Below, piece by piece: positions 12,240-51,480 of a stretch of DNA of 64,000 nucleotides (positions are counted from its first letter, which is position 1; each line of letters starts with the position of its first letter). The notes below the pieces were generated by a model that had not been told where the DNA came from, searched no databases, and saw only the letters and a list, made by a program, of their open reading frames with translations. Source of the DNA: Closterium sp. NIES-65 (taxonomy: Eukaryota; Streptophyta; Zygnematophyceae; Desmidiales; Closteriaceae). Location of the stretch: contig CANXME010000106.1 in the NCBI GenBank assembly GCA_948144175.1, positions 1,364,001 through 1,428,000 of the forward strand, written 5' to 3'. Position numbers and translations under genes: made by a program.

Positions 12240-13400
12240 CGGGTTGCTCGGCGGCTCGGCTGTAGGGCGGCTCAGCTGCCGGGCGGCTCGGCTGCTCGGG
12301 CGGCTCGGCTGCTGGGCGGCGCGGCTGCTGGACGGCTCGGCTGCACGATGCTGGGCGGCTCGGCTGTCGGGCGGCTCGGCTGCTGGGCGGCTCGGCTGCC
12401 TGGCGGCTCGGTTGCTGGGCGACTCGGGCGGTTAGGACTGAGCCATAGTAGGGGCCTTATTGGGGCCGCAGGGGGGGGCCGAAGTGGGGCCGACGGGGCC
12501 TTAGCGCGGCCTTAGTGGGGCCGCAGTGGGGCCGAAGTGGGGCCGACAGGGCCTTAGTGGGGCCGTAGTGGGGCCGACGGGGCCGTAGCGGGGCTGTAGC
12601 GGGGCCAAAACGGGGCCTAAGAGGGGCAGACGGGGCCGAGGTGGGGCCGCAGCAGGGCCAACAGGGCCGACGGGGCCGTAGTGGGGCCGAAGTGGGGCCG
12701 ACGGGGCCGTAGCTGGGGCCGGAGCGGGGCCAACAGGGCCGTAGCGGGGCCGAAGCGGGGCCGTAACGGGGCCAAAGTGGAGGCCGACGGGGCCTAAGTG
12801 AGGCCGCAACGGGGCTGACGGGGCCGTAGCGAGGCTGCAACGGGGCCAAAGTGGGGGCCGACGGGGCCTAAGCGGGGCCGCAGCGGGGCCGACGGGGCCT
12901 AAGCGGGGCCGAAGGTGGGCTAAGCGGGGCCGACGGGGCCGTAGCGGGGCTGTAGCGGGGCCGCAACGAGGCCGAGGTGGGGCCGACGGGGCCTAAGCGG
13001 GGCCGCAACGGGGCCGACGGGGCGTAGGCGGGGCTATAGCGGGGCCGACGGGGCCTAAGCGGGGCCGACGGTGGGCTAAGCGGGGCCGGCGGGGCCGTAG
13101 CGGGGCTGTAGCGGGGCCGCATCGGGGCCGAAGTGGGGCCGACGGGGCCTAAGCAGGGGCCGCAACGGGGCCGACGGGGCCTAAGCAGGGCCAATCGGGG
13201 CCTTAGCGCGGCCTAAGCGGGGCTATAGCGGGGTTGACGAGGCCTAAGCGGGGCCAACGGTGAGCTAAGCAGGGCCGACGGGGCCGAAGTGAGGGGCCGA
13301 TGGGGCCTAAGCGGGGCCGCAACGAGGCCGTAGCGAGGCCTAAGCGGGGCCGACAGGGCCTAAGCAGGGCCAACGGGGCCGTAGCGGGGCCAACGGTGGG
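12240..13400. repeat. GC-rich minisatellite leader of element B
   Basis: Between the PBS and the gag start lies over 1.1 kb of short imperfect repeats. 12240-12430 has units near GCTCGGCTGCTGGGCGG. 12436-13400 has units near GGGGCCGACGGGGCCTAAGC. Open frames over this stretch on both strands come from the repeat and should not be read as genes. Confidence 0.85.
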
Positions 13401-15834: not shown

Positions 15835-16316
15835 TGTCATAACATATAGCTTATACATCTGTCAAGGCTGTAGTGGGGTAGCCCATAAGGGGTACAACCC
15901 AATTAGGATTAGTACTTGTACCCAACTGTTTCATAGTTCATTCATTCCCGTTCTAATTGTCACATGGTATAGAGCAGGTTCCCCCGTGGGAACTATTCCT
16001 AGGGCCCACCGACCTTTTTTTTCCTGCCCGGAGCACGCTTGGCCCCTGCCCGAGTCGCGACCCGTGTGACTTCCTGTCAGAACATTATAGCTTATACATT
16101 TGTGTGGGCTGTAGTGGGGTAGCCCATAAGGGGTACAACCCAATTAGGGTTAGGACTTTTACCCAACTGTTTCATAGTTCATTCATTCTCTCGTTCTAAT
16201 TATCACATGGTATCAGAGCTGGTTCCCTCGTGGGGACAGTTTCTAGGGCCCACCGACTTTTATTTCCTGCCCGGAGCACGCTTGGCCCCTGCCCGAGTCG
16301 CGCCCCGTGTCGTTCC
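15835..16316 (+). repeat. tandem duplication of LTR plus leader at 5' end of D
   Basis: Two units of about 240 bp: LTR 15835-15964 with PBS TGGTATAGAGCAGG and 110 bp of leader, then LTR 16075-16207 with PBS TGGTATCAGAGCTGG and the same leader. The outer LTR matches the 3' LTR in bounding the insertion, so the second LTR is internal. LTR-LTR recombination between tandem copies, or a reverse-transcription error, would give this. Confidence 0.85.
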
Positions 16317-16319
16317 CCC

Positions 16320-17165
16320 TCTAGCGGCCTCTAGCGGCCCCTTTTACGGCCCCTAACGGCCCCGTCGCGCCGCCCTTGCGGATCCGTCACGACGCCCTTC
16401 AAGCGGCACCGTTGCCGCCCCTTACTACGGTCCCGTCGCCGCCTTTTCAGTGGCCCCGTCGCCGCCCTTTCAGCGGCCCCGTCACCGCCCTTTCAGCGGC
16501 CCTGTCGCCGCCCTTCCACGGCCCCGTCAACGCCCTTCCACGGCCTCGCCGCCCGCCCTTACAGCGGCGCCGTCGCCGCCCTTCCCGGGGCCCAACACCG
16601 CCCTTCCGCGGCCCCGTCGCCGCCCTCCAGCGGCCACGTCGCCGCCCTTCAGCGGCCCCGTCGCCGCCTTTTCAGCGGCCCCGTCGCCGCCCTTTCAGCG
16701 GCCCTGTCGCCGCCCGCCCTTTCAGCGGCCCCATCGCCGCCCTTCCGCGGCCCAGCCACCGCCCTGCAGCGGCCCCGTCGCCCCCCCCCCCCCTTCCGCG
16801 GCCCAGTCACCGCCCTTCTAGCGGCTCGTCGCCGCCCTTTCAGTGGCCCGTCGCCGCCCTTTCAGCGGCCTGTCGCCGCCCTTTCAGCGGCCCCGTCGCC
16901 GCCCTTCCACGGCCCCATCGCCGCTCAGCCGCCCAGCGCCCGAGCTGCCGAGCAGCCCAGCCACCGAGCAGCCGAGCAGCCAAGCAGCTGAACCGCCGAG
17001 CAGCCGAGCCGCCCAACCGCCAAGCCGCCCTGCAGCCGAGCCGCCCGACCGCCGAGCCGCCCAGCAGCCGAGCCGCCCGACCACCAAGCCGCCCTGCAGC
17101 CGAGCCGCCCGACCGCCGAGACGCCCAGCAGCCGAGCCGCCGAGCCGCACCGCAGCCGAGGCGCT
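16320..17165. repeat. GC-rich minisatellite leader of element D
   Basis: 16320-16920 is built of imperfect units near CGGCCCCGTCGCCGCCCTT. 16920-17165 is built of units near GCCGAGCAGCCGAGCC. Open frames on both strands here are repeat artefacts. Confidence 0.85.
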
Positions 17166-17244
17166 GCCGCCTGTCGGCCTGCCCAGGACTGCCCCACTTG
17201 CCTCGTAAGAGCAGCGTCTCTGCCACTGCACTCCCCTGCCCCAC

Positions 17245-18190
17245 TGGAACTCCACCTGCTTGTCCTCAAGGACGTCGTGCTTAGAGCACACTCACCCCCG
17301 ACGGACGGAGCACAGACAGACTCTGACTCAGCAACGAGACTGGCAGCGTAGTCTAGACGATAGCGAGCAGGGAAGCCGACAAGCTCAGCATCTAGGGCAG
17401 ACGCAGCAGTGGACTCAAAGGAAGGGTTAGTGACAATAGTAGCAAGAAGGCGCGTGACCGAAGGACTAGCTGCACGAAGGGAGTCAGACTTCGGGTCAGC
17501 AAGAACAGGAAGAGAGGACTCTGCAGGAGCCGGCAACGGGACACGCAGAGGGGCACTGGAGGGACGCAGTGCCATCTGGTGTGTGCCGGGGACCGCAGGA
17601 GGACGCGGACGCGCAGCAAGACGACTAGATCGCGCAGCACGAATAGGCGACGCAGGACGAGACGCAGGCTCACGACGCTCAGCAAGACCTCCTGTAGGAA
17701 GAGTGTAGGGAGAAGGAGCAAATAGAGGGGAGGCGGGCTGTAATTGTTACTGCGACTGGACAGGCTGTGGACACTCAGAGGAAGGAGCAGAACTAGGAGA
17801 GGGCGGGAGACCAAGAACGTGCTCAAGGAGCGGAACGAAGTACGGGCTCGGCCGCTCACTGCCTCCAGAACTAGCAAGAACGGCACCAGTACCCCCAGCG
17901 GCAGCACCAGCGCCAGCAGCACCTCCAGCTCCACTAGCGCCAACTCCAGCACCTTCAGAAGCACCACCGCTAGCAGCACCACCAGCGCCAACACTCCCTG
18001 CAGCTCCAGCTCCACCAGCACCAGCTCTTGTAGGACCGTCAGCTCCAGCAGCCTCAACAGCACCCCCAAACGTACCAGTGCCAGTAGAAACACCAGCGAC
18101 AACACCCCTAGCAGTTCCGGCTCTAGTAGCACTAGTACCACCAGCAGCTCTAGCAGGACCAACTCCAGTAGCCCCAGCAGCAGAGTGGTG
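17245..18190 (-). mobile_element. inverted copia pol piece inside element D
   Basis: This stretch reads on the minus strand as the pol N-terminal region and spacer of the same lineage (GTHQMALRPSSAPLRVPLP, then the Gly/Ala-rich spacer), while its surroundings in D read on the plus strand. It occupies the place where sister copies carry the first part of gag. It could be a separate insertion or an internal inversion. Confidence 0.75.
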
Positions 18191-18218
18191 TGACCCTGTC
18201 CCCTTCGCAACTTCGTGA

Positions 18219-19964
18219 GTGGTACACTGCGCGTCAGCCAGTGGGGGATTTGGTCCCTGCACTTACGTCCTCCGTACCGGCGACCGAGCTGGTGAGCAAT
18301 GCGTAGCCCCGCACTCCACCCAGCGCTGTTTCAGTCGCCTGACGGACGCGTGGCGTCGCCAGTTCCCTGAGGCGTCAGTGATCCCTTGCTGGGGAGATCT
18401 GTCTAGGGCGGGGGGTGCCGTCTTTGATCTTGACTATGATGCTATCCCTGCTGCCATGTATTCCGTGACTACTTGTGTTGAGGGTGACTGCTACCTGTAT
18501 GTACCGCCTGACCCGGGCATTAAGGCCACTGCTCTAGGCGCTGGTGAGGCTGCTGCTCTAGGTGCTAGTGCGTCTGCTGCACCAGGTGCAAGTGCGTTTG
18601 CTGGCCCAGGTGCCAGTGCGTCCGCTGCCCCAGGTGCTGGTGAGTCTGCTCTCTCAGGTACTACGTCGGCTCAGGCCTTCCACACCTTCACCCTTGACTC
18701 GGGTGCGTCCCGCTCCTTTCAAGACCGCACCACTCTTACGCAGCTCAGTCACCCGGTTGCAGTCTCCCTGGCAGACCCCTCTGGGGGTCCTGTCCTTGCT
18801 AGCTTCTCCACTGTCTTACCGTGCCCGGCAGCCCCTTCTGGCACCCTGTCTGGTCCATACCTCCCCTCGTTCTCTACGAACTTGGTGAGTGGAGCGGACC
18901 TACAAGATAGGGGGGTTGACCAGTTCACTCTTGCGAGTCACCGAGTGACCCACTGTACGTGTGCTCGGACAGGCCGACACTTGGCCACGTTCACCCATCG
19001 GCCAGGGTCGAGCATGTACACCCTTAATAATGAGTCTCCTCCGGCTGTTGAGTCTGCCCAGGTAGCTGCATCGAGTCAGGTGTTTGCTGCAACGTCCAGG
19101 TCTGGTCCTGAGTCTGCTCCCTGCTCGTGTCGTCTACTATCCCACCAGAATCTCCTTTGGCACCACCGCCTTGGTCACCCCTCCTTGCCCCGTCTCCGAG
19201 GCATGGCCTTCCGTGTCCTTGTCCCTGATCTCCCTTGGTCTCTCCCTCCCCTTCCTCCGGGGCCTGGCCCTACCTACGTCCTCTCCGTCGAGGGGCGACA
19301 GCGCGCCGCCCCTCACTCCTCCGAGTTTCCTCTGAAAGAGGCTCCACTGCAGACTCTCCACATGGACGTATGGGGCCCAGCCTGCGTCAGTGGGCAGGGG
19401 CGCGAGCGGTACTTTCTGCTGGTGGTTGACGACTACTCGCGTTACACCACACTCTTCCCCTTGCGCAGTAAGGGTGACGTCTCTGAGGTGCTGATCGACT
19501 GGATCCGCGCAGCTCGTCTCCAGCTCAGAGAGAGTGTCGGCTCGGACTTTCATGTCCAGCGTCTGCACTCGGACAGAGGCGGGGAGTTTTCCTCTGACCG
19601 TCTGGGAGCTTTCTGTCGTGCACAGGGCATGCGCCAGACCTTCACGCTTCCAGCCTCTCCACAGCAAAATGGGATTGCTGAGTGCCGCATTGATATAGTC
19701 ATGGACGTCGCTCGTACGTTAATGATGCATGCGGCTGCCCCCTATTTTCTGTGGCCGTTTGCGGTTCAGTACGCCGCGCATCAGCTCAACCTTCAGCCGC
19801 GGGTCTCCTTGCTAGAGACCTCCCCCGCCTTGCGGTGGACCGGGAAGGTTGGCGATGCGTCTGCGTTTCGGGTCTGGGGATCTCAAGCGTTTGTCCGCGA
19901 CTTGTCTGCGGACAAGCTGTCCTCCCGTGCTATTCCTTGCGTCTTCCTTGGCTTCCCCCTTTGA
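18219..19964 (+). CDS. element D gag C-terminal part, protease and integrase
   Basis: A long plus-strand frame of 581 codons. In order: Cys/His motif CTYVLRTGDRAGEQC with H and C following (about residues 14-38); protease motif FTLDSGASRSF; pre-integrase zinc region WHHRLGHPSLPRL; integrase motifs HMDVWGPACVSGQG, LHSDRGGEFSSDRLG and PASPQQNGIAEC. The tail is PCVFLGFPL. It belongs to a broken element and is best read as a fossil polyprotein segment. Confidence 0.88.
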   Translation: MVHCASASGGFGPCTYVLRTGDRAGEQCVAPHSTQRCFSRLTDAWRRQFPEASVIPCWGDLSRAGGAVFDLDYDAIPAAMYSVTTCVEGDCYLYVPPDPGIKATALGAGEAAALGASASAAPGASAFAGPGASASAAPGAGESALSGTTSAQAFHTFTLDSGASRSFQDRTTLTQLSHPVAVSLADPSGGPVLASFSTVLPCPAAPSGTLSGPYLPSFSTNLVSGADLQDRGVDQFTLASHRVTHCTCARTGRHLATFTHRPGSSMYTLNNESPPAVESAQVAASSQVFAATSRSGPESAPCSCRLLSHQNLLWHHRLGHPSLPRLRGMAFRVLVPDLPWSLPPLPPGPGPTYVLSVEGRQRAAPHSSEFPLKEAPLQTLHMDVWGPACVSGQGRERYFLLVVDDYSRYTTLFPLRSKGDVSEVLIDWIRAARLQLRESVGSDFHVQRLHSDRGGEFSSDRLGAFCRAQGMRQTFTLPASPQQNGIAECRIDIVMDVARTLMMHAAAPYFLWPFAVQYAAHQLNLQPRVSLLETSPALRWTGKVGDASAFRVWGSQAFVRDLSADKLSSRAIPCVFLGFPL

Positions 19965-20224
19965 CGCGCCTGGGTGGCAGTTTTACCACCCCACCTCGCG
20001 CCGTGTTCTGTCCTCCCAGCACGTCACCTTTGACGAGTCGGTGCCTTACTACCGTCTTTTCCCCTACCGCACTACGCCTCTCCCCCCGCCGCTGCTCTTC
20101 CTTGCACTAGGTCCTCCCCTGGTAGACCCCCTCCCCCCTCAGGGTCCTGCCCCGTCAGGTGTGTCCCAGGTAGACGCAGTCGAGCCGGTCGAGGTAGCTA
20201 TTGATTCTGGTGCTAAAAAAGGTG

Positions 20225-20440
20225 CTAAGCCTACGGGTGCCGGGTCTGGGGGTGCTGAGACTAGGGGTGCTGAGACTGGGGGTGCTGAGTCTGGGGGTGC
20301 TGAGCCTGGGGGTGCTGAGTCTGGGGGTGCTGAACCTGGGGGTGCTGGGTCTGGGGGTGCAGAGCCTCGGGGTGCGGAGCTTGGAGGTGCGGAGCCTGGG
20401 GGTAGCGAGCCTGGGGGCGCTGGGTCTGCTCGTGTGGCCG
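20225..20440 (+). repeat. pentapeptide-coding 15-bp repeats in pol spacer (D)
   Basis: About 13 tandem 15-base units near GGTGCTGAGCCTGGG, reading A-E-x-G-G on the coding strand. They lie in the integrase-RT spacer. Mirror-sense frames over this block are shadows. Confidence 0.85.
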
Positions 20441-21209
20441 CCGGCTGTGCTTCGTCGAGGCGGGAGCGACTCTCTCCATAGGAGCTGCGCGAGTGGTTTG
20501 CTCGCCGCTGTAGACATGCTGCTACGATAGGGGGTCCTGCTGGAGCTGCTGGCGGTACTAGTGCTGCTGGAGCTGGAGCTGCTGGGGGTGTTGGCGCTAG
20601 TGTTTCTCCTGGCAGTGGTGCGTCTGGGGGTGCTGCTGAGGCTGCTGGAGCTGACGGTCCGACTGGAGCTGGAGCTGCTGGAGGTGGAGCTGCTTGGGGT
20701 GTTGGCGCTAGTGAAGCTGGAGGTGCTGGTGGCTCTGGTGCTGCCAGTGGGGGTACTGGTGCCGTCCTTGCTGGTTCTGGAGGCGCTGAGCGGCCGAGGC
20801 CGTACTTCGTTCCTCTCCTGGAGCAGGTTCTTGGTCTCCCGCCCTCTCCTGGTCCTGCTCCTTCCTCAGAGTGTCCACAGCCTGTCCAGTCGCAGTCATA
20901 GTTACAACCTATCTCCCCTCTACCCGCTCCTTCTCCCTACAACGGTTCTACTGGAGGTCTTGCTGAGCGTCGTGAGCCTGCGTCTCGTCCTGCGTCGCCT
21001 GTTCGTGCTGCTCGCACTAGTGTTTGTGCTGCGCGTCCGCGTTCTCCTGCGGTCCCCGGTACACACCAGATGGCACTGCGTCCTTCCACTGCCCCTCTGC
21101 GTGTCCTGTTGCCGTCTCCTCCTGAGTCCTCTCTTCCTACTCTTGCTGACCCGGAGTCGGACTCCCTTCGTGCTGCTAGTCCTTTGGTCACGCGTCTCCT
21201 TGCTACTGT

Positions 21210-21635
21210 TACACCTTCAGCCTTGGCTCTTGCTCTGTTTCGTGGCGGTCTACCCGCTCGTCTTCTGTTCTCGGCTCCAGCTGTGAGGCTGAGATCTATG
21301 CAGGGGCCATGGCTGCACAGGAGCTACGCTGGCTCACCTACTTGCTGACTAACCTAGGAGAGCCGCCTTGTTCTCCTCCAGTTCTGTACGTAGACAACAA
21401 GGCCATGCTGGCCTTGTGTCGGGAGCACAGACTTGAGCACAGAACGAAGCACATTGCTCTCCGCTACTTCCTGGCTCGTGAGCTGCAGCAGCGTGGTCAG
21501 CTCCGCCTCACCTACATTGCCTCTGAGGCCAACACTGCTGATATCTTCACCAAGGCCCTTCTGCCTTGTGATCATCAGCGCTTGTGTACTTTGCTAGGTC
21601 TTGTGCCTACCTGGCCTCACTTGCTCACTTCTTGA
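21210..21635 (+). CDS. element D RNase H tail
   Basis: C-terminal RNase H region of a copia polyprotein: MAAQELRWLTYLLTNLGEPP, LYVDNKAMLALCREHRLEHR, TKHIALRYFLARELQQRGQL, ANTADIFTKALLPCDHQR. The ADIFTKAL motif marks the end of copia pol. The 3' UTR (21636-21833) ends in a purine tract next to the LTR. Confidence 0.85.
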   Translation, partial: YTFSLGSCSVSWRSTRSSSVLGSSCEAEIYAGAMAAQELRWLTYLLTNLGEPPCSPPVLYVDNKAMLALCREHRLEHRTKHIALRYFLARELQQRGQLRLTYIASEANTADIFTKALLPCDHQRLCTLLGLVPTWPHLLTS

Positions 21636-21833
21636 TCTTGTTTGTACTGTACTCTTTCTATACCTGCACTTGCTTGTTTACCTTTATATATATGATCTTG
21701 CATGTAAACTGGCCTTGTGGCCTTGCTCTTGTTCTCGGACTGTGTGGTGACTTTGTGATCAACCTTGAGCTTGTTTTGCTTTGCTTCACTGGTCTTGTGA
21801 CCACTTTTTCTCCCCCACTTTGCCGATGGGGGT

Positions 21834-21964
21834 GTGTCAGAACATATAGCTTTTACATCTGTGTATGTTGTAGTGGGGTAGCCCATAAGGGGTACAACCC
21901 AATTAGGGTTAGTACTTGTACCCAACTGTTTCATAGTTCATTTATTCTCGTTCCAATTCCGACA
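21834..21964 (+). repeat. 3' LTR of element D (131 bp)
   Basis: Begins TGTCAGAACATATAGC, ends CAATTCCGACA, and holds the core GTAGTGGGGTAGCCCATAAG. The purine tract CGATGGGGGTG precedes it. TAACA follows. Confidence 0.9.
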
Positions 21965-27019: not shown

Positions 27020-28140
27020 AAGGAAGGGCGGCGCGCGGCCGGAGGAGGGCTGAGTGCGGCAGAGCAGGGCGGCGCATGGCCAGAGCAGGGCGGCGCGCGG
27101 CTAGAGCAGGGCGGCGCGCGGCCAGAGCTGGGCGGCGTGCGGCTAGAGCAGGGCGGCGTGTGGCCAGAGCAGAGCGGCGCGCGGCTAGTAGCAGGTAGTA
27201 GCTCCTAGGGAAGAAGCACCAAGAGCTCTTTTTACATATATATATATATATTTATTTATATATTTATCTATTTATTTAATTTAGTGTTTAGCACGGCCCA
27301 CAGGGCGCTGCAAAGGCGGCTCGGGCAGGGCAGAGCAGGGCGCTAGCGCGCGCAGGGCAGGGCGCTGGCGGGTTGGCAGGGCAGGGCGCTTGCGTGGGCA
27401 GCAGCGCGCACGGGCAGGGTGGTGCTGGGCAGCGCGTGCAGGCCCACGGCGGGCGCAAAACGCAGGCACGGCGGGCGCAAGGGGCGGGCCCGCGGCGGGC
27501 GTAGCGGACAGGTGCGGCGGCACGAAGGCAGGGCCCGCGGCGGGCCTAACGGGCGGGTGCGGCAGCGGGCGTAACGGGCAGGCGCGGCGGGGCGAAGGGA
27601 GGGCCCGCGGCTGGCCTAATGGGCAGGCGGTAGGGCGCGACGCGCAGGGCAGCAAGGCGCTACGCGCGGGCTGGAGAAGAGCGCGACGCGCGGGGCAGCA
27701 AAGTGCGACGCGCGGGCTCCAGCAGGGCGCGACGCGCAGGGCAGCAGGGCACGGGGCAGGGCAGGGCGTGCGCGAGGCAGCGCGATGCGGGCCAGGGCAG
27801 GGCGTGCGCAATGCAGCCCGACGCGGGGCAGGGCTGGGCTTGCGTGATGCAGCGCAACACGGGGCAGGGCAGGGCGTGCGCGGGGCAGCGCGACGCGGGG
27901 CAGGGCAGGGCGTGCGCGGGGCAGCGCGACGCGGGGGAGGGCAGGGCGTGCGCGGGGCAGTGCGACGCGGGGCAGGGCAGGGCGTGCGCGGGGCAGCGCG
28001 ACGCGGGGCAGGGCAGGGCGTGCGCGAGGCAGCGTGACACGGGGCAGGGCAGGGCGTGCGCGAGGCAGCGCAACGCGGGGCAGGGCAGGGCGTGCACGGG
28101 CAGTGTGACGCAAGGCAGGGCAGGGCAAGGCGCGCACTCA
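27020..28140. repeat. minisatellite leader of element E
   Basis: 27020-27200: imperfect units of about 23 bp near AGAGCAGGGCGGCGCGCGGCT. 27229-27290: AT-rich (TA)n/TTTA run. 27760-28130: about ten units of 36 bp, each including GGGGCAGGGCAGGGCGTGCG. The 36-base period keeps all frames open on both strands, which explains the long Arg/Ala/Gly or Cys/Pro frames seen there. Confidence 0.88.
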
Positions 28141-28253
28141 CAGCGCAGCGTAGGACAGGGCGTGGGGTAACGGGGTAACCGCAGTCGGTAACTAAGTAAT
28201 GGTGGGCCCGAAAAAAAAAAAACGGTTCTAAACTAGGACCTGCTCTGAAACCA

Positions 28254-28384
28254 TGTCAAAATAACGAACAGGGATGAATGAATTAGCAGCAAGATGGGTA
28301 CAAGTAGGAAACCCTAATTTAGGTTGTACCCCATATGGGCTACCCCACTATAGCCTAAACAACAAGCAGCATATATGTTTGACA
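28254..28384 (-). repeat. 5' LTR of element E (131 bp)
   Basis: On the minus strand it starts TGTCAAACATATATGC and ends GTTATTTTGACA. The PBS TGGTTTCAGAGCAGG follows at 28253. AAGCG at 28385-28389 matches the duplication at 15335-15339. Confidence 0.92.
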
Positions 28385-28596: not shown

Positions 28597-29962
28597 TGTC
28601 AGAATATAATGCTTGTCTAGTCGGTAGTGGGGTACTCAATAGTAAGTATAACCCTTTTAGGGCTTGCTATTTGTACCTCCCTCCTTTCTAGTCAAAACGC
28701 TCTTCTCCTCTTTTGCCTATTCTCTCTTGTCTAGCTAGTTAAACCCTATCTATGGCTCCTTCATTCTAGCTACTGTGTCTGACATGCTATCAGAGCAAGT
28801 ACGCTCCTGGCCTATGGGCCCACTTGCTTCCGCTGCTATCCTGTCTGTCACGCGCCCTGTAGCATGCGACGTTTATTCTTCCCGCCACGCGCTCGGGGCG
28901 CATGGCGGTTCTCTGCCCGCCGCGTGCTCAGGGCGCGCGGCGGTTTTCTGCCCGCCGTGCGCCCCGTGGCGTGTGGCGGTTTACCGCCGCGCGTCCTTCC
29001 CCTTCGACCGTCGCGTCACCCCAGGGACCCGCGCGTCCCTCCTAGTCGACCAACGCGCCGCCCCCGGAGAACCGCGCTTCCCCCCCATCGACCATCGCTT
29101 CCTCCTAGGGACCCGCGCGCGACCCCCGCGATCCCGTCGCGTTGCCCTAGGGACCCGCGCGCGGCCCCCGCCATCCCGGCGCGCCACCCCGTGGGACCCG
29201 TGCGCCACCCCCGTGGACCCGCGCGTCGCTCTGCGGCCACCCCTCCCAGCACACCTGAGTTTGCTTACCGCACACCCGAGTTTGCTTCCCGCACGCTTGT
29301 GCACGCTTCGCGCACACCTGAGCTCGCTTACCGCACACTCAGGGTATGGGGGTGACGGGTATGGGGGTGGCGGGTGTGTGAGCCGTCCCCTGCTCCTCCT
29401 CCTTCTCCTCCGTCTTCCACTGCTGCAGCTGCCGCTGAGGGGGGTGGGTGTGTGGGAGCCGAGGGAGTGGTGCTAGGGGGATGACGTGGGAGTGGAGCTC
29501 GGGGTACAGCAGGGGGTGTGTGAAAAGGGGTGGGACAGTTCGGGGAGGTAGACGTCGTGTCGCCAGCAGCGCCAGTAGTCCGGAGGCTACAGTCTCCGGT
29601 AGTCGCCAGTCGCCCGTGGGTCAGTTGCTCCAGCCTTGGCGTAGTCCGAGCCATTTTCTTTGGTAGCCACTGAGCCAGCTGCTCCTGTGACAGCTTCCGC
29701 TGTCGCCTCCCATCTCCTCTCCTCTAACAGTCCCTCCTCCTCCTCACTTGCCCTTTGTGAATGCCTCTAGGTTCGCTTGTACTTGTGAACCTGCTCTGTG
29801 ACTACTTGCTGTGCTGATTATACCCCACTTTGACTATGGGGGCGTGTCAAAATATAATGTTTGTCTGGTCTATGGTGGGGTACTCAATAGTGAGTATAAC
29901 CCTTTTAGGGCTTGCTATTTGTACCTCCCTCCTTTCTAGTCAAAACCCTCTTCTCCTCTTTT
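28597..29962 (+). mobile_element. non-autonomous copia-type element F
   Basis: 5' LTR 28597-28784 (188 bp, TGTCAGAATATAATGC...GTGTCTGACA) is followed directly by PBS TGCTATCAGAGCAAG. The interior (28800-29844, about 1.05 kb) has no gag or pol that I recognise. It holds GC-rich imperfect repeats (about 28860-29240). A purine tract CTATGGGGGCG then meets a 3' LTR at 29845, of which about 118 bases remain before element H. With no coding capacity and complete priming sites, it reads as a small non-autonomous (LARD/TRIM-like) element. Confidence 0.72.
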
Positions 29963-31369: not shown

Positions 31370-31740
31370 GTCGCGTCCCCTGCCCTTAGCGGCCTGTCGC
31401 GCCCTCCTAGAGGCCCCTCTCACGGCCCCTCGCGCCACCCTTAGCGGCCCCGTCACCACCCCTAGCGGCCCCCTCGCCACCCTATACGGCCCCGTTGCCG
31501 TCCTTTGCGGCCCCGTCACCGCCCTTCTAGACCCTTCGCGGCCCCTTTGCGGCCCCGTCGCCGCTCCTTTCCGACCCCGTTGCCGCCCTTCCAGGCCCCT
31601 TGCGGCCCCTTTGCGGCCCCGTCGCCGCCCCTATCAGCCCCGTAGCCGCCCTTCGCGGCCCCGTCGCCGCCCCTATTGGCCCCGTCGCCTCCCTTCGCAG
31701 CCCCGTCGACTCCCTTTGCCTCACCGCTTGCCGCCCCCTA
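31370..31740. repeat. minisatellite leader of element G
   Basis: Imperfect units near GCGGCCCCGTCGCCGCCC fill most of the leader, close to those of element D but with other lengths and order. Confidence 0.8.
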
Positions 31741-48216: not shown

Positions 48217-49612
48217 TGAAACGAGAATGACTAGAAACAGGGCAGTACAAGGTTTGTATAGGCAAAACCTAACAATACTGTACCCCATAAGAAGTGCCCC
48301 ACTATAGCCTACAACATAGTTCTGACACACCCCCATAGGCAAAGTGGGGGATAAGCAAGAGAACAAGGCAAGGTCAAGCTCAAGGTGGATCACAACGTCA
48401 CCACGCATTCTCAGCACAAGTACAAGGCCACAAGGCCAGTTCACATCCAGGATAATAAATCAAGATGAACAAGCAAGACAGTGATCTCAACCTAGCAAGG
48501 GTAAAGGTGCAGGTATATATAGATCACAGTACACGCAAAAACAAGAGGTAAGCAAGTAAGGCCAGGGAGGCACAAGACCTAACATAGTACAAAAGAGCTG
48601 ATGATCACAAGGCTGAAGTGCCTTGGTAAAGATATCAGCAGTGTTGGGCCGAGTGGCCACGTAAGCAAGACAAAGCTGACCACGCTGCTGCAACTCTCGA
48701 GCAAGGAAGTAGCGCGGAGCAATATGCTTTGTTCAATGCTCCAGTCTGTGCTCCTAACACAAGGCCAGCATGGCCTTGTTGTCGACGTACAGAACTGGAG
48801 GAGAACGAGGCGCCTCTCCCAAGTCAGTCAGCAGGTAGGTGAGCCAACGTAACTCATGTGCACCCATGGCCCCAGCGAAGATCTTATCCTCACAAAGGGA
48901 GCTGAGAACTGAAGACGAGCGGGTAGACCGCCACAAAACAGAGCCGGAACCAAGGCTGAAGGTGTAACTTTGTGACAACCGCTGCGTAGCCAAGTCGTCA
49001 GCCCAAGAAGCGTCTGCGTAACCAGTGAGGACAACTCGAGCCCGACCTCCAAGCACAAGCCCCATGCACGACGTAGTGCACACGTAGCGCAACACCCTCT
49101 TAGCTGCATCCATGTGCTCTGGTCGGTGTCTCCTAAGAACAACATAGCGTGCCAAGATGCTAAAAGGGTATGCCAAGTCAAGTCGAGTGTAGGTCATCAG
49201 GTAGATGAGGCAGCCAACAAGCTCTGAGTACGGGCCACTCGGCTCTACGGACTCATCAAAAGGCAGAGGTGAGAGCGAGGAGCACGTGAAGTTGAAGCAC
49301 GGAAGGACCTGCTGCACCATGTGTGACTGAGTCAAGGTAATGGTGCGCCATGCTCTGTCCCAGGTGATCCGCAAGCCAAGATAGCTGCGCAGCTCACCCA
49401 GGTCTGTGCACGTTTGTCTCTTCTGCAGCTCCGACTTCACGTGGGCGAGTCCCTCAGTGTCACCAGTGGCAAAGACCAAGTCGTCGACGTACATGAGGAT
49501 GTAGAACGGCGGCAGCGAAGTGTCGGTGCGCAGAAACAGCGACGGGTCAGCAGTGGAAGGAGCAAACCCAAGAGCCGCAAGCATAGTCTTCAGTGTGTCG
49601 TGCCACCCTTCC
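48217..49612 (-). mobile_element. copia fragment O (3' part)
   Basis: Minus strand. 3' LTR 48217-48327 (111 bp, ends at TGACA next to CACCCCCATAGG), 3' UTR to about 48600, RNase H and RT to 49612 (YILMYVDDLVFATGDTEG, HMVQQVLPCFNFTC, LARYVVLRRHRPEHMDAAKR, ADASWADDLATQRLSQSYTF). The protein is of the main subfamily, while the LTR matches fragment K. The 5' side is missing. Confidence 0.85.
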
Positions 49613-49671
49613 ATACTCTAGTCATCAATCACCATTCCTTGTACCTTCCTAAGCTAGTTATATCTTAGGAA

Positions 49672-49945
49672 GGCATGCCAGCACCTCCACCTCTTCCACT
49701 ACCACGACCCCCCTTGCGCCTGCCACGCCCACCCGAGGCAGCAGCATCAGCTGCAACCTCTGTAATAGGAGCGGGCTTTGCAATAAAGGCAGGGGGAGCA
49801 GAGACAGGGATCCAGGGAGAGGCAGAGCGTTTGAAAATAGGGGGTACCACCTCACCAGTAGTCGCGGCTATGGTGCGGAGGCGGATCTCGATCTTAGTGA
49901 GACTGATCTTATGAAGATCGCGTCAGAGACCAGTAGGGTGCATAC
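49672..49945 (-). pseudogene. unrecognised ORF relic with RGG-rich C-terminus
   Basis: The minus strand reads RDLHKISLTKIEIRLRTIAA, TGEVVPPIFKRSASPWIPVS, an Ala/Pro part, then GGRGRRKGGRGSGRGGGAG and MPS before a TAA at about 49672. The RGG tail suggests RNA binding. Immediately beyond the TRIM array (50558-50610) the minus strand again reads plausible protein (TKYFVWSTVWAIFANG), so the array probably landed in this sequence. Interrupted at least once. Host gene or TE gag cannot be told apart here. Confidence 0.4.
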
Positions 49946-50557
49946 TATCAGAATCCCAACCACCAGACAATTGGGATAAAAGGGCTTGTTTCAGTAGCAG
50001 GTCAGTGCGCCCATAACCCCCAAGGCTAACATGCCTGTAACCTCCCCAAGGATCAATCGTGGATTTCACAGTGCAGCTCTACTGACACCCCCCCACACTG
50101 GGAGGCCCAAGACTGAGCACACTGGCAACGGCCTGCATGTGCATACACCGGGATTCGAACCCGAGACTGCTCTGATACCATGTCAAAATCCCAACCACTA
50201 GACCATTGGCATAAAAGGGCTTGTTTCAGTAGCGGGTCAGTGCGCCCATAACCCCCCAGGCTAACATGCCTGTAACCTCCCCAAGGATCAATCGGGGATT
50301 TGACAGTGCAGCTCTACTGACAACCCCCCACACTGGGAGGCCCAGGACTGAGCACAGTGGCAACGGCCTGCATGTGCATACACCGGGATTCGAACCCGAG
50401 ACTGCTCTGATACCATGTCAAAATCCCAACCACTAGACCATTGGCATAAAAGGGCTTGTTTCAGTAGCAGGTCAGTGCGCCCATAACCCCCCAGGCTAAC
50501 ATGCATGTAACCCCCCCAAGGATCAATCGGGGATCTCACAGGTGAGCTCTAGTGACA
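49946..50557 (-). mobile_element. tandem TRIM array: LTR-int-LTR-int-LTR
   Basis: Three 142-bp LTRs (49946-50087, 50181-50322, 50416-50557) are separated by two 93-bp interiors (50088-50180, 50323-50415), an exact 235-bp period. On the minus strand each LTR starts TGTCA and ends GATTTTGACA or a close variant. The PBS TGGTATCAGAGCAG abuts the upstream LTR, and a purine tract GTGTGGGGGG abuts the downstream one. CATAC at 49941-49945 and 50558-50562 is a perfect target duplication for the whole array. No coding capacity. LTR differences of roughly 5-8% suggest moderate age. The interior also holds GGGTTCGAATCCCGG, like a tRNA B box. Confidence 0.9.
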
Positions 50558-50603
50558 CATACCGTTTGCAAAGATGGCCCACACCGTGGACCAGACAAAG
50601 TAC

Positions 50604-51480
50604 TTGGTCTGGGTGTCGCGCGACGCAGCTGCACATCTCGCCCTTAGTCACCTCCTACCCCATGTCGAGCGCGTATACTAACACATGGGCTTACAGGTAC
50701 GCATCGTCCTGGCGCTAGCTATGTAGGTGAAGCTGAACGTCATTCTGCGAAATGTCAAAATCGATCGCCGGACCCTCTGCATCAATGCGAGGTACGAATG
50801 TAGAAGTACAAATTTAGAGAGATTAGTGGCGCAGCTACCGATTAGAGCGTGGTAGAGACTTGAGTCTAGGACGAGGCCCGTGTGAGGAGGGACTAGTGGC
50901 TAAGACTGTCACTAGCAGTTGTAGTTGTGGTAAGTGTAGTACTGGCTAGGGCTGGAAGGGGAGACAGAGTGGCAACTGTAAGAGAGGCATCTCTAGCAAG
51001 CGGTAGCTGGCTTAGGTAGCTACAGCGATGGCGCGTGTAGGGATCAAGTGGCAGCGGCGGGGTAGGGCGGCTGTAGCAGCGGGCGGCAAGCTGCAGCCGC
51101 AAGCAGCGAAAGGGCGGCAGGCTGCAGTAGCGGGTTGCGGGCTACAGCATCAAACAGCTCACAAGCTACTGATTGAATGAGCAATACAAACAGCGCAAGG
51201 GGCAGTGTTACTTTACATTCACTCTGAAAAGGTGTCAATAACAAATCCGTTGTGCATTTACTCGGCGATCAATCCTGAGCAAAGGTCCTGACTACCCCTA
51301 ATGCAGGGCCCAAAATTGGTTTAGGCCCACCCTGACCAATCAGGCCCTGACCCTTAAGGTAAATTTTTTCATACACTGCTGAAAACAGCCTAAAATTTCC
51401 CTTAGACTGATTATGGCAGTGTAACTTTGCATTTACACTGTTTGCACTACAGGTTTCCAAACTCATGAATATCACACTTA
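50604..51480. other. unassigned interval
   Basis: No gene or family recognised. 51055-51150 has short GC-rich repeats around GCGGGCGGCAAGCTGCAGCC. 51250-51480 is AT-richer and featureless. Confidence 0.5.

Follow-up and report, generated by a model that had tools for sequence, protein, structure and literature searches.

Organization of the tandem TRIM array

A tandem TRIM of type L3I2, an already known kind of array, occupies positions 49941-50562 of the window (the whole 64-kb stretch of DNA that was analyzed), and it probably keeps a record of its own growth in place. It consists of three LTRs of 142 bp that alternate with two interiors of 93 bp, and its sense strand is the minus strand. 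TRF reported a 235-bp period with 2.6 copies, 94% matches and 0% indels (one of 95 rows for the window). The numbers and lengths of the LTRs and interiors, as well as the exact period, were thus as originally predicted. The features of the array are listed below.

49941-49945, unstranded: left copy of the target duplication CATAC
49946-50087, minus strand: LTR L1, the outer 3' LTR of the sense strand; its outer end is TATCA on the plus strand, where the inner LTRs have TGTCA
50088-50180, minus strand: interior 2, 93 bp; purine tract at 50088-50094, 7 G on the sense strand
50151-50161, minus strand: B box GGTTCGAATCC of unit 2
50169-50180, minus strand: PBS TGGTATCAGAGC of unit 2, with complementarity to plant initiator tRNA-Met at its 3' end
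50181-50322, minus strand: LTR L2, the shared middle LTR; mosaic, with the break between 50257 and 50270
50185-50188, minus strand: TTTT between the A and B boxes of unit 2, a possible pol III stop
50195-50205, minus strand: A box TGGTCTAGTGG of unit 2
50323-50415, minus strand: interior 1, 93 bp; purine tract at 50324-50329, 6 G on the sense strand
50386-50396, minus strand: B box GGTTCGAATCC of unit 1
50404-50415, minus strand: PBS TGGTATCAGAGC of unit 1, with the same complementarity to initiator tRNA-Met
50416-50557, minus strand: LTR L3, the 5' LTR of the sense strand
50420-50423, minus strand: TTTT between the A and B boxes of unit 1, a possible pol III stop
50430-50440, minus strand: A box TGGTCTAGTGG of unit 1
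50558-50562, unstranded: right copy of CATAC

L1 and L2 differ at 9/142 positions, L2 and L3 at 9/142, and L1 and L3 at 14/142; the two interiors differ at 3/93. Eight frames of at least 50 amino acids overlap the array, and the longest stop-to-stop frames wholly within it are 86 amino acids long. Nothing suggests that the array has coding capacity, in keeping with the coding-free unit that had been proposed. BLASTN with a word size of 7 found no additional LTR or interior copies in the window, the leftover matches being at most 33 bases long with E values of at least 0.29. Scanning the array patterns against viral contigs and prokaryote genomes yielded 0 matches, as expected for a eukaryotic element.

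On the sense strand the LTRs begin with TGTCA and end with TGACA, except that the outer 3' end is TGATA. Short LTRs with TG...CA termini around a non-coding interior, in less than 1 kb, are typical of a TRIM and are present here, apart from a TA in place of TG at the outer left border (plus strand). CATAC flanks the array once per side, where repeat homology stops. The plus strand of the 64-kb window holds 26 copies of this pentamer, which puts the probability of a chance match at a given position near 1 in 2500. The PBS TGGTATCAGAGC, complementary to plant-type initiator tRNA-Met at its 3' end, is present at 12/12 nt in both units directly after each inner LTR border. A primer of this type points to a green plant or a streptophyte alga. 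This 12-nt sequence occurs exactly three times on both strands of the 64 kb, in the two units and in one Copia element. Each interior closes with a G run, 6 long in one and 7 in the other, that either abuts the next TGTCA or stops one base short of it. This G tract follows GTGT, and a Copia element in the window has GATGGGGGTG at the equivalent place. The CATAC copies bounding the whole array and the primer site in each interior bore out the original prediction, and its identification of a tandem TRIM with one target duplication was structurally right. What it described as a purine tract is a run of only 6-7 G before the next LTR, weaker than had been implied. The exact 235-bp period would also fit a short stretch of satellite DNA; however, there are only 2.6 periods, and these start and stop at LTR borders with a target duplication, such that we give this explanation almost no credence.

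The combination of three LTRs, two interiors and one duplication defines the L3I2 type. Tandem TRIMs are widespread in plants, where 35 of 43 genomes yielded a total of 129 subfamilies, and L3I2 was the commonest type in maize, accounting for 63 of 93 arrays (PMC4717578). Three LTRs were also reported for eight of 89 intact elements of Wukong in maize (PMC4528315). The likeness of our array to these maize elements that is noted here is one of anatomy; the maize examples in the figure legends of PMC4717578 have 5-bp duplications, as does our array. At 377 bp the unit is not the smallest LTR element, since PMC10886601 cites a length of 292 bp for SMART, another very small LTR element.

The middle LTR is a mosaic

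Sixteen sites vary among the three LTRs. Seven are private to L1 (LTR positions 2, 6, 19, 24, 30, 77 and 115), seven are private to L3 (positions 90, 98, 120, 127, 128, 129 and 137) and two are private to L2. The left part of L2 tracks the right-hand LTR, while its right part tracks the left-hand LTR. Unequal recombination between two diverged LTRs, La and Lb, is predicted to produce La-interior-(left of Lb, right of La)-interior-Lb. One breakpoint between LTR positions 77 and 90 fits 13 of the 14 informative sites, and does so with the polarity that this model calls for (p 0.004 by permutation, or 0.008 when both polarities are allowed), the exception being site 115. When sites 127-129 were merged as one change, 11 of 12 sites fit (p 0.015; 0.030 for either polarity). 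This evidence comprises 14 sites at one locus, and gene conversion could imitate the pattern. The interiors differ less (3/93) than the outer LTRs (14/142). This is the direction expected if the interiors were duplicated later than the onset of LTR drift, although the difference by itself does not reach significance (Fisher p 0.07).

The discussion in PMC11899658 does not decide between recombination in place and integration of a ready-made array as the origin of tandem LTR elements, and both routes had been offered for this array by the original prediction. Integration of a ready-made concatemer, formed in the course of reverse transcription through template switching or read-through transcripts, is a route that was proposed for Cassandra (PMC7215508) and for rice tandems (PMC11899658), and it would account for the single duplication that bounds the entire array. 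However, LTRs made in this way should have been alike at insertion, with private changes scattered at random along their length, whereas the changes private to L1 and L3 lie in opposite parts; the smaller difference between the interiors (p 0.07) also speaks against it. We therefore consider a concatemer unlikely. As the middle LTR is a mosaic, the sequence comparison favors growth in place after insertion. A mosaic middle LTR is a simple sequence test that can be applied to every three-LTR array.

The account that we consider very likely to be correct as a whole is the following. A single 377-bp TRIM (LTR-interior-LTR, sense strand minus) would have inserted, probably by Copia-type machinery, generating the 5-bp duplication CATAC. 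Its two LTRs would then have diverged by drift. Later, an unequal LTR-LTR exchange between sister chromatids or homologues would have duplicated one LTR and one interior in place. The outcome would be LTR-interior-mosaic LTR-interior-LTR inside the original CATAC duplication. The identity of the helper, the mechanism of exchange and the time order of the steps are what we infer in this account; the anatomy, the duplication, the mosaic pattern and the TRIM-like signals were read directly from the sequence. LTR divergence gives no sign of a recent insertion, as the outer LTRs differ at 14/142 positions, or about 10%. No empty site was found in the window, where the joined flanks matched their own locus and gave one 22-nt flank match (E 0.003).

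A tRNA-like sequence straddles the LTR-interior border

Comparison with the consensus sequences of the two boxes placed an A box, TGGTCTAGTGG, at LTR positions 118-128 and a B box, GGTTCGAATCC, at unit position 162. The boxes are 33 nt apart on the sense strand with the A box upstream. In 20000 dinucleotide shuffles of the unit, searched on both strands, the two boxes never occurred together at a distance of 25-60 nt; a B box occurred 20 times and an A box 1747 times. No further B box of the same form is present in the window.

The unit was aligned locally with tRNA sequences, and its scores were compared with those of 1066 tiles of the window. Animal tRNA-Glu gave a score of 38 and plant tRNA-Gly a score of 34; none of the tiles scored as high, their maxima being 23 and 28, respectively. 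Plant tRNA-Glu and tRNA-Asp gave 23 and 22, scores reached by 2 and 9 of the 1066 tiles. The LTR half and the interior half were also scored separately against 5724 tiles, with the PBS left out of both. For tRNA-Gly the LTR half (27) and the interior half (28) exceeded the best tile (26) narrowly, whereas for tRNA-Glu the margin was clear (33 and 29 versus 23). Decay is stronger in the outer 3' LTR, the one with no interior after it, which scores 17 for tRNA-Gly (reached by 143 tiles) and 26 for tRNA-Glu (reached by none). As both halves resemble tRNA-Glu and tRNA-Gly independently, a tRNA-derived sequence appears to straddle the LTR-interior border, the PBS occupying the position that the anticodon and variable region have in a tRNA. 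A B-box-like sequence in the interior had been noted before, as a feature that invites confusion with a tRNA-derived SINE. The sequence is indeed there, but the A box at tRNA spacing and the tRNA-derived appearance go beyond mere confusion.

A and B boxes at tRNA spacing are a feature of tRNA-derived SINEs and are present here. Tandem amplification of such a SINE, with an accidental resemblance to LTRs, would explain the box pair 33 nt apart, which none of 20000 shuffles contained, and the scores of the two halves above all 5724 tiles for tRNA-Glu and tRNA-Gly. It would leave unexplained the 142-bp direct terminal repeats with TG...CA ends, the PBS exactly at the border, the G tract and the 5-bp duplication on both sides. 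A SINE is not expected to start and stop at such LTR borders, and the unit does not end in a tRNA-like head and a 3' tail free of them. We regard this explanation as very improbable.

Other readings of the tRNA-like stretch were considered. A genuine tRNA gene at the border was rejected, as ARAGORN found no tRNA gene in the window and Rfam gave no matches in 49500-51000 at E values up to 10, neither 5S nor tRNA. The 77-nt segment does not fold as a tRNA, and its fold is no better than chance (z 0.96; equalled or bettered by 170 of 200 shuffles). A 26-nt piece forms a T-arm hairpin, yet it is matched by 37 of 200 shuffles and so does not exceed them. In a further reading, the B box would derive from the T arm of the primer tRNA, in antisense orientation. 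The interior beyond the PBS scored 15 against initiator tRNA, equalled by 751 of 3654 tiles, whereas it scored 28-29 against sense tRNA-Gly and tRNA-Glu, where 0 of 5724 tiles did as well; the antisense reading is thus disfavored.

Our tentative view, which we hold to be possible rather than probable, is that the element is a TRIM with a putative pol III promoter split by the LTR-interior border, the PBS lying between the A and B boxes. The boxes straddling the border may serve, or may once have served, as this promoter. TTTT is present between the boxes in both units, which counts against pol III transcription and a working promoter. Also against a working promoter are another TTTT a short way upstream of the A box (LTR positions 107-110), the lack of a tRNA fold and the negative ARAGORN and Rfam results. 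If the split promoter is real, a solo LTR would be promoterless while each LTR-interior junction of a tandem array would have a complete promoter, so that their number would rise as the array grows. Transcripts would then extend from just upstream of the A box to the TTTT near the next LTR end, with a short terminal repeat as in Cassandra. A working split tRNA-like promoter would be another way for a minimal LTR element to borrow a pol III promoter.

Helenus, or TRIMp3, combines TRIM anatomy and a 5-bp duplication with A and B boxes of tRNA type; pol III transcription is a mark of TRIMp3. The only plant family that PMC10886601 reports is that of Selaginella. The 120-bp LTRs and 85-bp interior of the latter are close to the 142 and 93 bp found here. 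Our element also has the PBS and the 5-bp duplication of Helenus elements from fungi and plants, with the short G run at the place of their purine tract. However, in Helenus the tRNA-like sequence lies within the LTRs (PMC10886601), whereas our element has its A box in the LTR (positions 118-128) and its B box in the interior, the PBS separating the two. As only the first half of the tRNA-like sequence is in the LTR, we did not file the element as Helenus; by analogy it may work like Helenus. Cassandra is likewise a TRIM with a small-RNA promoter that occurs as tandem arrays (PMC7215508), but it carries 5S rRNA sequence, which Rfam did not find in our element, and the promoter here is putative. 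Among the papers listed on TRIMs with pol III promoters, PMC10886601 and PMC7215508 were by title the only ones bearing on such a border. The passages of PMC4717578 and PMC4528315 that describe the maize L3I2 elements and Wukong make no mention of a tRNA-like border.

Copia elements surrounding the array

The window is a nest of Copia elements, with long self-alignments throughout. Ten of the 107 listed frames were searched against Pfam; six matched RVT_2, or integrase with SH3-like and gag-pre-integrase domains, and four matched nothing. The TRIM array sits just past a Copia fragment whose similarity to the others stops near 49606. Five Copia-like LTRs were identified.

15835-15964: Copia-like LTR; the primer site after it lacks one base
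16075-16207: Copia-like LTR, followed by an exact primer site
21835-21964: fifth Copia-like LTR
28254-28384, minus strand: Copia-like LTR, followed by a primer site with one mismatch
28597-28784: Copia-like LTR, followed by a primer site with one mismatch

All five start with TGTCA; two end with TGACA as in the TRIM, one with CGACA and two with TCACA. The minus-strand LTR at 28254-28384 and the TRIM both have ATTTTGACA just before the primer site, and the complete Copia element at 15835-21964 has GATGGGGGTG before its 3' LTR (TGTCAG). None of the five Copia LTRs resembled the TRIM LTR better than shuffles did (p 0.16-0.53). Two of four Copia leaders aligned with the TRIM interior (p 0.018 and 0.008, uncorrected for the nine comparisons made), and the alignment with p 0.008 spans most of the interior; this resemblance is suggestive only. 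The Copia elements of the window, which also have a G tract in common with the TRIM, are its plausible helpers, mainly because LTR ends, primer site and duplication length agree.

The Copia element at 15835-21964 is inserted in an older Copia element, with a near-duplication (AAACA/TAACA, 4/5). It has an extra 5' LTR, its order being LTR (15835-15964), a 110-bp leader with a primer site, LTR (16075-16207), leader, coding region and LTR (21835-21964). The first LTR-leader-LTR segment is 373 bp, the size of a TRIM, and is without a purine tract. A nested insertion followed by LTR recombination would explain the extra LTR.

Additional complementarity to initiator tRNA-Met

Each TRIM LTR contains a 14/15 match antisense to the anticodon arm of initiator tRNA-Met (50240-50254, 50005-50022 and 50475-50489). 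The match had a shuffle p of 0.005 in one of 8 comparisons. Among 3654 tiles, 12 scored at least 25 for it: five in the array, three at Copia primer sites and four elsewhere. Bipartite primer contact sites are described for Ty1 and Ty3 (PMC5371799); a second primer contact of this kind in the TRIM would be possible, but the match is weak once the several comparisons are taken into account.

The segment 28785-28836, after the primer-site-like border of the Copia-like LTR at 28597-28784, is antisense on the sense strand to initiator tRNA-Met over the D arm (11/11) and over 11 consecutive nucleotides of the anticodon arm, past the normal extent of a PBS. Primer read-through or extended primer pairing is a possible explanation. 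The motif GGGCCCACC, complementary to the anticodon stem of the same tRNA, is found in leaders at 16002-16010, 16246-16254 and 28200-28209, 26-32 nt past the primer site; two of these leaders are copies of one, and the occurrences are not significant singly. GC-rich tandem repeats with short units are present at 12475-13396, 16393-17148, 27025-28126 and 31397-31716, and two of the four lie just downstream of the Copia primer sites at 16208 and 28253.
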